A program made the position numbers and the translations under genes. Positions 8,005 to 21,924 of a stretch of 22,038 nucleotides of DNA are shown piece after piece. Where the stretch lies: positions 1 to 22,038 of the IMG/VR virus record IMGVR_UViG_3300047276_000459; one strand, given 5' to 3'. Origin of the DNA: a virus. Under the pieces are notes generated by a model. The model searched no databases, had not been told where the DNA came from, and saw nothing but the letters and a program-made list of their open reading frames with translations. The first letter of the stretch is position 1, and each line of letters opens with the position of its first letter.

Positions 8005-10392
8005 TCAATACACTTCCAGATCGCCATCCATCTGGGCTTGAAACTCTTCCTCGATTGTATAGCCGCGACGGTCTTCTTGGGAAGCCTTCTGGGCTTCAGC
8101 CTTGCCAGGCAGCTCGTACAAAGCCTCAGACAAGAAGTAGCGGAAGTCATCAATCAAGTGGTCATTGGTCTTCGGGATCTTGCCGTGCTTGTCCTTGATG
8201 TAGTTCTGCATCTCCCACAAGAAGGCCTCGGCGAACTGTAGGTCGTCTGACTTTAGGTCCTTTTCCATTCCTGGGCGGCCAGCGATGTCGAGTAGGCCCA
8301 TGAGCATGATGTCCTTCATCATTCCCAGCTGACCCTCTTTGTCGTTGGTGGACTTGGTGGTCTGGTTGAAGCTGATGTCGTGGTTGTCGAACATTTCCTT
8401 AATGAACCACAAGGCGGCCTCGTCGCAAACATAGGTCCACTCTGAGTTGGGTGCCAGGCGGTTTTTGGTCTCGATGATCCTTGGTCCGATCTGCGTCACG
8501 CCAGTCTGCGTCGGGTCGCGTTCATAAATCGTCTCGAAAACATGAATTCGCTTGGTATTTGAGTTTAAAGCGAGGAACATAACAGCAAAGCATGTGGCCG
8601 TACCTGGGTCAGCGATGCAAAACCACTGAAGTCTTTTGATGTCTCTTGAGATAGTTCTTAACATCTCGCGTTGAGACTTTAATTCGACGCTATGCGCCTG
8701 CGGAAGGATCGACGCCTTACCGCCCTTTACGCGCCTAGCCATGTACTCCCGTTCCCAGATTACCCCGTCTCCTTTTGCATAGAGTTCGGCCTTTTTGTTG
8801 GCGAGCCACTCTCTTGAGAGGTGTGGGTTGGTCTCGGACGGCATATTGAAGTGTCGTTTTTTGGGGTTGATGGCGAACTCATCTGCGTCTTTGGTGAAGT
8901 GGCTTTCGGCTTCTGGCGGGGTTCCTACGATGATGAGTGAGCCGTCTAGGATATTTGGGTCAAAGACTCCGTAAAAGTCTGGTCTGAAGTCCTTGTATTC
9001 ATCGAAGCCCACGAGTCCGCCGTTGACGATCTTGATACCCCGGTACTTGTCGATATTGTCTGAGCCGTCGACCTTGATGAATGAGCCGTTTTTGAAGGTG
9101 ATCCGCATTTCGGTATCATTGATGCCCTCGATGTAGTCTTGGGGGCCAAAGGTCTTGATCCTGCCTGGAATCCAGATGATCTCTCGTCCTTGGTTCTGAA
9201 GGGGTGCGAAGTAGTAGTTTTCAGAGCCTGGGTTTAGGAGTGCCGTGCGCCAGAACATATAGCACATGAACTCGGTGTTATGGGTCGGAATGAAGCTCTT
9301 TGAAACAAGAAACAGGCTGTCTTCTGAGTCGACAGTCAGACATCGAACAGGAACAGATGGAACCTCTTTAATTGATTTGATCGCGTGGCTTCTGGTTCTA
9401 GATGTAGACCGGCGAAGGTACTTTTGCTTTCGCGGGAGCGAGAATGGAGTGAAGTTGATTGGTGTCCAATTGACCTGCCAGGATCTCTTGTACTCGGTTT
9501 TTCCAATCTTTGGGATTTTGCTTGTGAGCGTTGGACGTTCTCCCAAAGACGCTACGATCTCGAAAACATCGCGGGCCATCTGCTCATTGCTCTGACTGAA
9601 TGACACCATGCCTGTTTTTTCGCAGTGCCCGTCGGTATCCATTAAGCCATGCAGGAGTTCTAAACGCTGCCTAATGCTTGATAGGCGGTAGGCCTCTGGA
9701 ATATGCTTGTTTTTCTTTAGTCCTACCTCACGAAGCGGCACGCCTAACTTTTTTATGTAGTAGTCATAGGTGCTAAGACGCGTCGTTTCAAATCCTAAGG
9801 CATGAATGCGCTCGATTGTTTCTTGATCTGCTGTGGAGATTCTGGAGTCATTTGAGTTCCCGTTTCCAAGCCATGCACCTAACAGCCACGGATCAATTGG
9901 AAGGTCTCGCTCTTGATAAACCACCGGCTCTGATCTTCTGATGTGGTAGTTGTACTCGTTCCCAAGAGATGTTTTCCCAACCATGTCTTTGGTTTTAATG
10001 ACGCGTGGTTTCTTTTTGTGTTTGCGATCAGACTTTGTCGAAACCTCCCACAGATGATCTTCGCAAGCTGTTATCTTTTCGCCATTCAGGAATTCGATCT
10101 GAAAACAGCGGCGACCAAAGAGAACTTCATGGGCCTTTACCACCCGGCACGGCAGTCCGCTTGACCCAAGCACGAGATCGCCCGTGCGAATATCTCCAAT
10201 GGCCCGAAACCCTGTTGGAGTCGCCACCGGCGTGTCTAATGCAAGTGCTTTTCCCCAGTTTCGCCCACATTCGAGGAAAATCTGTTGAACTACCTTGTTT
10301 AGGATGACTTTCCCGACTTCTATTTGTCCAGGGTGCGGGGTCCAGTTGGCGTGGAGATCCTGAATGACCTGGGCGTAGTAGTCGATAGACAT
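8005..10392 (-). CDS. terL: Terminase large subunit (TerL) precursor carrying an in-frame intein
   Basis: A 795-residue precursor, ATG at 10392. It is the packaging motor: an N-terminal ATPase and a C-terminal RNase H-like nuclease that cuts concatemers and pumps DNA into the procapsid through the portal. The Walker A loop is split: GRNWGK (43-48) is followed by an intein (49-372) and then TEFMCY (from 373), so splicing would restore GRNWGKTE. Walker B is LVGFDEYKD (460-468) and the coupling motif is IIVGTPPE (487-494). Nuclease acidic residues are in FCIADPGTA (Asp 595), YVCDEAA (Asp 657) and HLIDDF (Asp 748/749). The mature protein would be 471 residues, a normal TerL length. TerS lies just upstream and the portal gene follows a few small genes later. 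Without splicing, ATP binding would be destroyed. Confidence 0.93.
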   Translation of the reverse strand: MSIDYYAQVIQDLHANWTPHPGQIEVGKVILNKVVQQIFLECGRNWGKALALDTPVATPTGFRAIGDIRTGDLVLGSSGLPCRVVKAHEVLFGRRCFQIEFLNGEKITACEDHLWEVSTKSDRKHKKKPRVIKTKDMVGKTSLGNEYNYHIRRSEPVVYQERDLPIDPWLLGAWLGNGNSNDSRISTADQETIERIHALGFETTRLSTYDYYIKKLGVPLREVGLKKNKHIPEAYRLSSIRQRLELLHGLMDTDGHCEKTGMVSFSQSNEQMARDVFEIVASLGERPTLTSKIPKIGKTEYKRSWQVNWTPINFTPFSLPRKQKYLRRSTSRTRSHAIKSIKEVPSVPVRCLTVDSEDSLFLVSKSFIPTHNTEFMCYMFWRTALLNPGSENYYFAPLQNQGREIIWIPGRIKTFGPQDYIEGINDTEMRITFKNGSFIKVDGSDNIDKYRGIKIVNGGLVGFDEYKDFRPDFYGVFDPNILDGSLIIVGTPPEAESHFTKDADEFAINPKKRHFNMPSETNPHLSREWLANKKAELYAKGDGVIWEREYMARRVKGGKASILPQAHSVELKSQREMLRTISRDIKRLQWFCIADPGTATCFAVMFLALNSNTKRIHVFETIYERDPTQTGVTQIGPRIIETKNRLAPNSEWTYVCDEAALWFIKEMFDNHDISFNQTTKSTNDKEGQLGMMKDIMLMGLLDIAGRPGMEKDLKSDDLQFAEAFLWEMQNYIKDKHGKIPKTNDHLIDDFRYFLSEALYELPGKAEAQKASQEDRRGYTIEEEFQAQMDGDLEVY
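9277..10248 (-). other. Class 3-like intein with LAGLIDADG homing endonuclease, inside TerL P-loop
   Basis: Residues 49-372 of TerL (324 aa). The N-terminus is ALALDTPVATPTGF: the usual block A, but with Ala in place of Cys1. Block B is TACEDHLW, with the His (113) followed two residues on by Trp 115. Block F is VRCLTVDS, with Cys 351 and Thr 353. Block G is FIPTHN, with His 371 and Asn 372, and the first C-extein residue is Thr 373. Non-nucleophilic residue 1, Trp-Cys-Thr and Thr+1 together are the published signature of class 3 inteins, where the block F Cys attacks the N-junction. The two dodecapeptides of a LAGLIDADG endonuclease are visible as WLLGAWLGNG (about 169-178) and LLHGLMDTDG (246-255). 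The element therefore can splice and probably home into intein-free terL genes. Endonuclease activity is inferred, not shown. Confidence 0.9.
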
Positions 10393-16467: not shown

Positions 16468-16692
16468 TTAGCCGTAGCCGTCGCCGTCGCCGTTGCCGTA
16501 GCCGTCGCCGTAGCCGTAGCCGTAGCCGTCACCGTTGCCGTAGCCGTAGCCGTCACCGTCGCCGTAGCCGTAGCCGTAGCCGTCACCGTTGCCGTCGCCG
16601 TTGCCGTAGCCGTCACCGTAGCCGTTGCCGTAGCCGTCGCCGTAGGTAGTTTGTGACTCGTCTCCTATGTTCACTTTAAAAGAGCTTTCCAT
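16468..16692 (-). CDS. Tyr/Asp/Asn-Gly dipeptide repeat protein (74 aa)
   Basis: ATG 16692 has AGAGGA correctly placed; the first 16 residues (ESSFKVNIGDESQTT) are ordinary. They are followed by 29 uninterrupted X-Gly dipeptides, with X = Tyr 14 times, Asp 10 times and Asn 5 times, up to the stop. Such a chain should be disordered or form a glycine-loop, tyrosine-rich, possibly adhesive or phase-separating tail. It overlaps the upstream gene by 22 bases, so it is part of the operon. Function unknown. Confidence 0.7.
   Translation of the reverse strand: MESSFKVNIGDESQTTYGDGYGNGYGDGYGNGDGNGDGYGYGYGDGDGYGYGNGDGYGYGYGDGYGNGDGDGYG
16471..16644 (-). repeat. 29-unit tandem hexanucleotide array (TAC/GAC/AAC + GGC)
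   Basis: On the coding strand each unit is NAC followed by GGC (occasionally GGT), N = T, G or A, never C. The unit length is two codons, so changes in copy number keep the reading frame. The array runs to the stop codon. Confidence 0.9.
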
Positions 16693-16982
16693 GCGTCCTC
16701 TTTGCAAACGATTGTCGCCACTTCTGTCAAACGATGAAACTCGACAAGACCGTTGGTAGGATCAAGTTTGGTTTCCTTCTTTGGACCATCTGTAGCTATC
16801 TCACCAAGCCCCTTTGTCGTTCCCCAGTTTCTAATAACACTGGCTTTGGTAAGCGAACAGTTGTCACCGTCACGCTGATAGTAACCGACCATGACCCAAC
16901 CGCGCTGCAAGATGCAGATACGCACTTCGGAACCCTTTTGTAATGGCGCGTACTCAATACCGTTGATAACTACATTCTCCAT
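16671..16982 (-). CDS. Hypothetical phage protein (103 aa)
   Basis: ATG 16982 behind GGGAGACGAG. The N-terminal half is beta-like (VVINGIEYAPLQKGSEVRIC, then RGWVMVGYYQRDGDNC); it contains VRNWGTTKGLGEI-type Gly turns and ends EDAWKALLK. The pattern VMVGYYQRDG with paired cysteines resembles small phage 'SH3-like barrel' proteins, but this is only an impression. Unknown function; in operon with the membrane peptide upstream (13 bases) and the repeat protein downstream (overlap). Confidence 0.7.
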   Translation of the reverse strand: MENVVINGIEYAPLQKGSEVRICILQRGWVMVGYYQRDGDNCSLTKASVIRNWGTTKGLGEIATDGPKKETKLDPTNGLVEFHRLTEVATIVCKEDAWKALLK

Positions 16983-18067: not shown

Positions 18068-18276
18068 AATGTCACCTCGTAACCTTCCCATCCGACATAA
18101 ACACGGCCAAGGTTTGGCAGGTTCCAAACGCCGCCAACGATCATTTCGTCATTGAGCAGAGCATCGACTGCCACTGCGATCTCTGGCATACGCAGAGCCT
18201 CATTTAAGCTAACTGTTTTAACGACCTTTTCATTCAAAGTATTGAACGCAATTGTGATCTTCTTAAATAGCGACAT
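18064..18276 (-). CDS. Hypothetical small protein (70 aa)
   Basis: ATG 18276 with a perfect GAGGAGG at 7 bases; the first codons lie inside the end of the endonuclease gene (14-base overlap). Helix (LNEKVVKTVSLNEALRMPEI), then a Gly/aromatic C-terminal strand region (GGVWNLPNLGRVYVGWEGY). Unknown function. The overlap may reflect insertion of the nuclease gene just before this start. Confidence 0.68.
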   Translation of the reverse strand: MSLFKKITIAFNTLNEKVVKTVSLNEALRMPEIAVAVDALLNDEMIVGGVWNLPNLGRVYVGWEGYEVTL

Positions 18277-18784
18277 GATTTGTCCTCCTCGAATGACCAC
18301 ATAGTTCCCACATTGATCTCATGTTTTCAAGTGAATTTATTGATTGTCGTTTATTTCGCTTTATTATCTTCTCAGTCTTTTTTAAAATTTTAGCACGAAG
18401 TACAACTTCGCGTTCTTTCTCTGTTCTTAGTAATTTTTCCCAATAGAACCTATTGTCATATCTCAAGCGCACAACTCGAAGATTGTTTCTATAACAAAGG
18501 CCATCTCTTTGAATGTCCGAAATCCGAACAAACGGCTTGTCGTGATAAGGACCGTCTACCTCGATTATTAAATCCAAGTCGCAAACCAGAAAATCAACAA
18601 TGATCCGATCAAACAACGGAACTTCTCGAAAAATCGTCATCCCTCCAAATACATTATTAATAACTAAACAAGCCTCTTTCTCTAGAGAAGAACTTAAATT
18701 AACTCTTTTTTTTTGAAACTTAAGAAGCCTTTTAGATTGTCTCTTTCCAAGTAAGACACCGTATCTCGTATTCCAGTAATCCAT
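18263..18784 (-). CDS. DUF559/Vsr-like endonuclease, probable free-standing homing nuclease
   Basis: A 173-residue protein with ATG 18784 and GGGGAA about 9 bases before it; longer TTG form at 18847 begins with a Gly-rich stretch and has no site. N-terminus DYWNTRYGVLLGKRQSKRLL recalls the small Y-W-x-x-R-x-G DNA-binding element of phage homing nucleases. The catalytic region is IIVDFLVCDLDLIIEVDGPYHD (acid-x-acid with EVDG), then DIQRDGLCYRNNLRVVRLRY, the order found in DUF559 / very-short-patch-repair-like PD-(D/E)xK nucleases. The C-terminus is basic (KKTEKIIKRNKRQSIN). The base composition is clearly more AT-rich than both neighbours, a sign of transfer. It lies at one edge of the 520-base gene-free RNA candidate. 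A restriction or repair role cannot be excluded. Confidence 0.75.
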   Translation of the reverse strand: MDYWNTRYGVLLGKRQSKRLLKFQKKRVNLSSSLEKEACLVINNVFGGMTIFREVPLFDRIIVDFLVCDLDLIIEVDGPYHDKPFVRISDIQRDGLCYRNNLRVVRLRYDNRFYWEKLLRTEKEREVVLRAKILKKTEKIIKRNKRQSINSLENMRSMWELCGHSRRTNHVAI

Positions 18785-18915
18785 AATTACTTGTTCCCCG
18801 TAGATCAGAACCCAGAGAGTGTCCAAATTACCCCCCTTACCCCCCAAGCTATGACTGGAGGTAAAAGAAGTTTTGGACTTATCGTCAGTTCGGTTCCTCT
18901 TCCGGCTTGTTCCCC

Positions 18916-20608: not shown

Positions 20609-20884
20609 TCATGGCTCCACCTCAAACGCAGCACGAAACCGCACGCGATCCTTGGGCGGAATCGACACGACCATACCCTTCCAGCGGTTGAACATCTTCT
20701 TTCGCTTCGAGCGAATGATTACAAAGCTGCCAAAACCACGAAGGCGAACAGAGATGCCATTTTCCAGTCGTCCCATCACATTCTCAAGCCAGCAATTGGT
20801 GATCTGCCTAACTGTGTCGGGGTGAAATCCAGTCTGGCTCGATACCTCTGAAATCAATTCGGTCGTGTTGATGCTATTTTTCAT
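20609..20884 (-). CDS. HU/IHF-family DNA-binding protein
   Basis: A 91-residue protein, the usual HU length. ATG 20884 overlaps the upstream ATPase stop by 11 bases, with GGGGAAGG upstream. The fold pattern is clear: helix NTTELISEVSSQTGFHPDTV, helix NCWLENVMGRLENG, then the signature GISVRLRGFGSFVIIRSK (43-60) and the C-terminal KDRVRFRAAFEVEP. HU proteins bend DNA and could serve packaging, replication or transcription. Oddly, the DNA-binding arm, normally G-R-N-P-x-T-G, is replaced by KRKKMFNRWKGM, so the intercalating Pro is missing and DNA contacts must differ. Next to the ATPase, a recombination role is likely but inferred. Confidence 0.85.
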   Translation of the reverse strand: MKNSINTTELISEVSSQTGFHPDTVRQITNCWLENVMGRLENGISVRLRGFGSFVIIRSKRKKMFNRWKGMVVSIPPKDRVRFRAAFEVEP

Positions 20885-21569
20885 TTACCTTCCCCGCGTT
20901 AAGCCAGCTCGCAAGCAGTTCACCGTCTTTTGCCGATAACTGCCGAATGTTGTTAAAAATACCAGTTCGATCCTTTGATGCCTGGGCTCCATGATCCATG
21001 GCAATATCCAAAACCACAGTGAACTCGTACTCAAGGCCCTCACGCTGAACAGGAGCTAGGCCAACCTTGATTGGAGCTTGCTTGCCCTTACCATTGTCTT
21101 GGAGAACATAGTCTTGCTTAGAGCGCATTGTGGCGATGATGTGAATATTCGCTTGGAGAATAGCTGCCGTGAACGCCTCTTGCTTTGGAGTGATCTTGGC
21201 CCAGTTGGTAAACGAGTTTCCGCCACGAGCATCAAGCTGCTCCTTTTGCGACAGCAACCCACCTTCTCCATTCCATGCGTGACTAAGAGAGTCGATGATT
21301 AAGACATCATATCCAGCGGCCTCGGCCGCTTTGATCGCCTGGATGTACTTCTCAGTCAAAAACGGTGAATGCATTTCGGCGACATCAAACTCAATCCCTC
21401 GGTCGGAATAAAGCGAGGCTGATCCGTTCTCGGTGTCGACAACCGCATACTTGCCACCAGGAACCAGCCCTTTTGCGATCTGAAGGGCACTGTAAGTTTT
21501 ACCAGACCCAGATGGCCCAGTGAGAGCCAGCCTGATTTTTGACGTTGAACGTGTGGCCTTTTTAAACAT
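20874..21569 (-). CDS. Sak4-like RecA-family single-strand annealing ATPase
   Basis: A 231-residue protein. ATG 21569 is preceded by GGGGAAG and is the only start with a site; a longer frame from 21800 is a shadow. Walker A is GPSGSGKT (18-25) and Walker B LIIDSLSHAW (90-99), with an acidic site in VVDTENG (43-49). The ATM-like line ANIHIIATMRSK (about 146-157) fits the AAA_24 (PF13479) phage nucleotide-binding group, whose members include Sak4 recombination mediators. It overlaps the preceding gene by 8 bases and the HU gene by 11, so the three form an operon. The role in homologous recombination is inferred from family and neighbours. Confidence 0.85.
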   Translation of the reverse strand: MFKKATRSTSKIRLALTGPSGSGKTYSALQIAKGLVPGGKYAVVDTENGSASLYSDRGIEFDVAEMHSPFLTEKYIQAIKAAEAAGYDVLIIDSLSHAWNGEGGLLSQKEQLDARGGNSFTNWAKITPKQEAFTAAILQANIHIIATMRSKQDYVLQDNGKGKQAPIKVGLAPVQREGLEYEFTVVLDIAMDHGAQASKDRTGIFNNIRQLSAKDGELLASWLNAGKVNEK

Positions 21570-21924
21570 TTGAACTTCCCCAGTTAAAAGATTCTCTTTC
21601 GCGACGAGCGTCGTCGGTTTTGTCGAGTGGTGAATTGTCGTCGATAAAGTGACGCTGATCTGGCTGCTGGCCAGATTGCCTGATGTTGGCACGACCAAGA
21701 GCCTCGAAAAGCTCACGCCCGTCCCCAACAGTCTTTGGCTTCTGAAGCTCATATCGCTTTCTTGCGATGATCTCATAGGCCTTCTGATGAGCGTCCTCAT
21801 GCTTCATGCCTTGGAGCTTAAACTCGTCCCTTAAGATACGAACGTCACGGATCAGACATGGAAAAGGCTCAGGCTCAATGGCCAAGCCCGTAATCAATGA
21901 ATATGGTCTTGATGGTGGCTGCAT
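21562..21924 (-). CDS. Hypothetical phage protein (120 aa)
   Basis: ATG 21924 with GAGGAGA 5 bases upstream; the longer frame from 22008 overlaps a probable upstream gene and has no site. It begins with a Pro-rich segment (QPPSRPYSLITGLAIEPEPF), then a helix (IRDVRILRDEFKLQGMKHED), another helix (AYEIIARKRYELQKPK), and a polar Asp/Arg/Gln-rich end (DDARRERESFNWG). No family recognised. Overlap with the Sak4-like gene suggests a linked role in DNA metabolism. Confidence 0.72.
   Translation of the reverse strand: MQPPSRPYSLITGLAIEPEPFPCLIRDVRILRDEFKLQGMKHEDAHQKAYEIIARKRYELQKPKTVGDGRELFEALGRANIRQSGQQPDQRHFIDDNSPLDKTDDARRERESFNWGSSNV

Follow-up and report, generated by a model that had tools for sequence, protein, structure and literature searches.

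Insertions between the Lys and Thr of the P-loop of the large terminase subunit (TerL), as well as class 3 TerL inteins, have already been published, and TerL is the commonest intein host in mycobacteriophages, class 3 examples included (PMC5050341). The Trp-Cys-Thr (WCT) residues of class 3 inteins occupy positions B:12, F:4 and G:5 (PMC5050341, PMC7891396), and LAGLIDADG motifs are present in 82.5% of 1701 class 3 inteins (PMC7891396). The terminase inteins of phages Baka (TerL1-b) and Bethlehem (TerL1-c), which lie in the ATPase domain of TerL and carry an endonuclease domain, splice efficiently and cut intein-free terL (PMC5050341). The 22-kb virus fragment IMGVR_UViG_3300047276_000459 (IMG/VR; 22,038 nucleotides, the whole of which is called the window here) carries on its minus strand a terL gene interrupted by a class 3 intein at this known hot spot, whose relatives are already known to splice and to cleave DNA. 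The only unusual point is that its homing endonuclease (HEN) has Asn in place of one of the catalytic acid pair, so that this enzyme may not cut normally. A first reading made by a model from the letters and open reading frames (the sequence-only reading) had held that class 3 inteins with an intact endonuclease in a terminase deserve a close look; terminase class 3 inteins with an endonuclease are not rare (PMC7891396, PMC5050341), and the finding extends the known class 3 inteins of the TerL P-loop by one divergent phage lineage.

The insertion point is exact, because the window protein aligns colinearly with the intein-free TerL proteins of two other records (L315, AARNWGK/TEL; L016, CGRKWGK/TDF; the slash marks the junction) and with the related TerL of L002, which has an intein inserted at this very position. 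It falls between the Walker A Lys and Thr, that is, at the Lys to Ser/Thr junction of the TerL1-a type site. The mature TerL aligns end to end with that of L315 (469 amino acids; 44.8% identity over 455 aligned residues) and with that of L016 (39.9% identity). Moreover, the exteins match annotated phage terminases and retain the Walker B motif FDE, the GTPP motif and the conserved Asp residues, and intact portal and major head genes follow 3' of terL on the same strand; the terminase identity of the exteins is based on these matches, motifs and gene order. Matches to PHROG terminases mostly cover the intein and were set aside as proof of it. As the remaining terminase motifs are preserved, the gene would seem to work only once the insert has been spliced out.

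The insert has Ala1 at the non-nucleophilic first position (Ala in 71 of 92 relatives), Trp67 at B:12, Cys303 at F:4 and Thr322 at G:5 (intein numbering), together with a predicted Hint fold, a terminal Asn and Thr at +1. His65, Trp67, Cys303, Thr322 and Asn324 are invariant in 92 of the 92 relatives, which were picked by similarity from phage records and IMG/VR, so that the invariance expresses family membership and is no independent motif frequency. Among solved structures, the closest in sequence are three class 3 DnaB1 inteins, 6rix, 6bs8 and 6riy (best E value 3e-22 with the single sequence and 3e-41 with a profile). A gap-free alignment places His65, Trp67, Cys303 and Thr322 on His65, Trp67, Cys124 and Thr143 of the M. 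chimaera DnaB1 intein (6rix), a class 3 intein with a Cys-His-Thr triad (PMC7664689), and Cys303 also aligns with the catalytic Cys118 of M. smegmatis DnaBi1 (6bs8). In the AlphaFold2 model (mean predicted local distance difference test score, pLDDT, 97.2) the splicing domain superposes on 6bs8 over 125 of 125 residues (Z 22.0, root-mean-square deviation 1.1 Å), and 6rix has the same fold at 1.7 Å. Both DnaB inteins share with the window intein Ala1, His65, Trp67, the Cys, the Thr and the terminal His-Asn, as well as Cys48, but they sit in DnaB, have no endonuclease domain and show DxxH in block B where the window has CxxH. The Cys that departs from the usual class 3 DxxH is residue 62 (10063-10065, minus strand); 10 of the 92 relatives have it, and L078 alone combines it with Cys48. 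Among the Pfam and NCBIfam intein models the splicing domain gave no useful match above the cut-off and Pfam Intein_splicing gave no match, which carries no weight as the class 3 relatives are clear. Nor was any weight given to Ser at F:13 of block F, a position that varies among the relatives (44 His and 18 Ser of 92).

Most of what the sequence-only reading had said of splicing holds. Its boundaries (GRNWGK/T, TerL residues 49-372) are borne out by the frame at 8005-10392 and by the intein-free L315 and L016; Ala1, His113 and Trp115, Cys351, the terminal His-Asn and Thr+1 (middle residues in TerL numbering) are all present, and alignment puts the Trp in block B and the Cys in block F. Its choice of Thr353 in block F as the Thr of WCT is ruled out, for Thr occurs there in only 29 of the 92 relatives, versus 92 of 92 for Thr370 at G:5. 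The likely competence for splicing, as a predicted activity, is backed by sequence, profile and structure, and the insert is very probably a class 3 splicing intein.

The whole intein model matches PI-SceI, the yeast VMA intein (Z about 26), with which it shares the Hint domain and the two-motif LAGLIDADG architecture, and PF14528 also scores above its cut-off. The splicing residues of PI-SceI set it outside class 3, and its Asp218 and Asp326, both critical for activity (PMC1508164), correspond in the profile alignment to Asn129 and Asp206; a catalytic Asp is thus retained in the second motif and replaced in the first. Position 129 is Asp in 87 of the 92 relatives, Asn in 3, Ala in 1 and Gly in 1. 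The Baka intein, which aligns end to end with the window intein including the WCT residues, has WLGDG and both catalytic Asp, and its P-loop site is reported one residue away. The TerL1-a inteins of mycobacteriophages and actinobacterial prophages (PMC5050341) likewise include class 3 inteins in TerL, whereas the window intein belongs to a different, unclassified phage lineage, is less than 42% identical to its best phage intein matches and has Asn for the first LAGLIDADG Asp.

Because one of the two active sites has Asn in place of Asp, cutting is likely to be damaged: in the window copy it has probably been lost or reduced to nicking, and we hold with moderate confidence that normal double-strand cutting is gone. 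The sequence-only reading had called the endonuclease intact and had it spread the intein among terL genes; Asn129 (TerL residue 177), aligned to PI-SceI Asp218, contradicts the first claim, and with one of two catalytic Asp changed the second is unsupported for this copy, although the LAGLIDADG domain presumably carried the intein from one terL gene to another in the past. Several points weigh against this reading. No further decay is visible in the window HEN, which is no outlier among its relatives (leave-one-out profile score at the 33rd percentile, motif 1 at the 46th). Asn129 comes from one contig and hangs on one base (AAC versus GAC), for which a sequencing error is possible. Both splicing and cleavage are predictions here, made from sequence and model. 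Furthermore, the endonuclease domains of Asn-type inteins elsewhere are well conserved, contrary to simple nuclease death.

The endonuclease might instead have kept its activity, by nicking or by a mechanism that needs a single Asp, with Asn129 a tolerated natural alternative that entails no loss, which we consider possible but rather unlikely. A scan of IMG/VR with a DNA pattern for DPxxLGxWLGNG, which counts the Asn version alone and gives no Asn:Asp ratio, matched 98 stretches, many of them class 3 inteins and in several kinds of gene; this abundance of the WLGNG version in viral stretches favours activity. So does the retention of other endonuclease residues: of the 72 Asn-types among 235 aligned inteins, 69 still have the second Asp (Asp206), and Lys181 is present in 68 of 71 Asn-types. 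On the other side, among yeast VMA endonucleases loss of Asp accompanies loss of activity, the inactive ones not keeping both Asp except for two from Torulaspora (PMC1508164), and a compensating acidic residue near position 129 was looked for in the Asn-types and none was found. A FastTree tree of 201 inteins requires at least 37 switches of the Asp/Asn label (of which 25 are forced by well-supported branches; mean with shuffled labels about 54). Some clades are entirely Asn, for example the one formed by L099, L134, L139, L143, L152, L171, L190 and L192, as activity would allow, but the window Asn stands isolated among Asp relatives, as expected of a recent loss.

Divergence between pairs of inteins points both ways. 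Asn-Asn and Asp-Asp pairs hardly differ in the ratio of HEN to splicing-domain divergence, and the ratio of synonymous to nonsynonymous divergence (dS/dN) in the HEN exceeds 1.6 in every measurable Asn-Asn pair, both in keeping with an active enzyme. The median HEN dS/dN is nevertheless lower in Asn-Asn than in Asp-Asp pairs (2.8 versus 4.6), though the splicing domains are lower too (3.7 versus 8.7); all these values come from non-independent pairs, many of them close to saturation at synonymous sites, and a ratio above 1 can also be due to structural constraint. Taken as sequence comparisons, these data suggest that the Asn-type endonucleases still do something, and the change from Asp to Asn at the first LAGLIDADG site does not look like simple decay. 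That many phage class 3 inteins, the window intein among them, carry a one-Asn endonuclease which is still functional by nicking or one-Asp cutting, arose repeatedly and is kept by selection nonetheless seems unlikely to us. Whether such enzymes cut, nick or merely bind bears on intein homing and possibly on natural nickases. Literature searches returned no published Asp-to-Asn variants of LAGLIDADG inteins, a weak negative as journal coverage was partial.

Side observations touch on the same residues. Across the IMG/VR loci L097-L176, many phage class 3 inteins that are otherwise well preserved, and that sit in several different host genes, have Asn in place of the catalytic Asp of motif 1. 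In L107, L108 and L170 Asn at motif 1 is accompanied by DTNG at motif 2, so that both catalytic Asp are replaced. The TerL intein of Mycobacterium phage mushipu (L010, match at 2001-2918) is almost identical to its counterpart in phage Contagion (L008), from which it differs by a deletion in the HEN and by a change of motif 2 from DTDG to DTNG; in contrast to the Asn-type pattern, this looks like ordinary endonuclease decay.

As for splicing, we infer its chemistry and the silencing of the motor from the residues and the insertion site. After translation the Hint domain would fold, and Cys303, activated by His65 and Thr322, would attack the Lys48-Ala1 bond to give an internal thioester branch. 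The N-extein would then pass to Thr+1, resolving the branch, and Asn324 would cyclise with the assistance of His323, which would release a TerL of 471 amino acids with its whole P-loop. Before splicing the ATPase loop would be broken by 324 residues between the Walker A Lys and Thr; with no TerL P-loop until then, packaging should wait for splicing, and it is sound to expect an inactive motor up to that step. In M. smegmatis DnaBi1 a disulfide between Cys48 and the catalytic Cys118 blocks splicing (PMC6195587). Because Cys48 and Cys303 match this pair, redox sensitivity of the window intein is possible by analogy. A true regulatory switch, in which oxidation would join Cys48 to Cys303 and hold TerL unspliced, is quite unlikely: the alignment of the two cysteines with the DnaBi1 pair and the presence of Cys48 in 69 of the 92 relatives speak for it, but DnaBi1 Cys48 is needed for splicing itself too (PMC6195587), so that its conservation may be structural. 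Finally, it is very improbable that terL is a pseudogene whose insert has degenerated and does not splice, for although Asn129 is at least one catalytic change and the source is a 22-kb fragment known from sequence alone, the frame is unbroken over all 795 codons, every splicing residue is retained, and the motifs of the mature TerL and the adjoining portal and head genes are intact.

Table 1. Features of the intein-bearing terL gene of the window (residue numbers of the intein unless TerL is stated)
Feature	Position	Strand	Remark
terL precursor (terminase large subunit)	8005..10392	minus	795 aa; mature protein after predicted splicing 471 aa
GRNWGK, N-terminal half of Walker A loop, TerL 43-48, end of N-extein	10249..10266	minus	
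Class 3 intein	9277..10248	minus	324 aa, TerL 49-372
Hint (splicing) domain, N-terminal part, about 1-110, with Ala1, His65, Trp67	9919..10248	minus	border with endonuclease domain approximate
Cys48, position of the redox-disulfide partner of the catalytic Cys in M. smegmatis DnaBi1	10105..10107	minus	Cys in 69/92; gap-free alignment to 6bs8
Block B His65-Leu66-Trp67 (B:10 to B:12); Trp67 is W of WCT	10048..10056	minus	H and W in 92/92
LAGLIDADG homing endonuclease domain, about 111-285	9394..9918	minus	PF14528 E 7.2e-06; PI-SceI fold and profile alignment
LAGLIDADG motif 1, LLGAWLGNG, 122-130	9859..9885	minus	
Asn129 (AAC; TerL 177) at catalytic Asp position, PI-SceI Asp218	9862..9864	minus	profile alignment
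Lys181 of NKHIP, conserved endonuclease lysine	9706..9708	minus	Lys in 92/92
LAGLIDADG motif 2, LHGLMDTDG, 199-207; catalytic Asp206, PI-SceI Asp326	9628..9654	minus	Asp206 in 92/92
Hint domain, C-terminal part (blocks F, G)	9277..9393	minus	
Cys303 (TerL Cys351), F:4, predicted first nucleophile, C of WCT	9340..9342	minus	Cys in 92/92
Thr322 (TerL Thr370), G:5, T of WCT	9283..9285	minus	Thr in 92/92
C-terminal His323-Asn324 (predicted Asn cyclisation)	9277..9282	minus	
Thr+1, first C-extein residue, Walker A loop Thr	9274..9276	minus	

The relatives of TerL indicate no host. The one genome match, L315 (JAAOYH010000061.1), holds the closest TerL, intein-free, with a portal-like neighbour on a contig filed under a Woesearchaeota genome, which is either a virus of a Woesearchaeota lineage or a misbinned phage contig. 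The GC content at third codon positions is 0.51 in the intein versus 0.68 in the C-extein, and 0.34 to 0.68 in the other genes of the window. Elsewhere on the minus strand, a DUF559 gene (18263-18847) with a GC content of 37%, against 51% for the contig, is probably a recent arrival. In addition, a reading frame at 16468-16707 consists almost entirely of YG[DN]G repeats, and at 20609-21800 a gene for an HU-like DNA-binding protein overlaps the end of an AAA_24 ATPase gene, both also on the minus strand.
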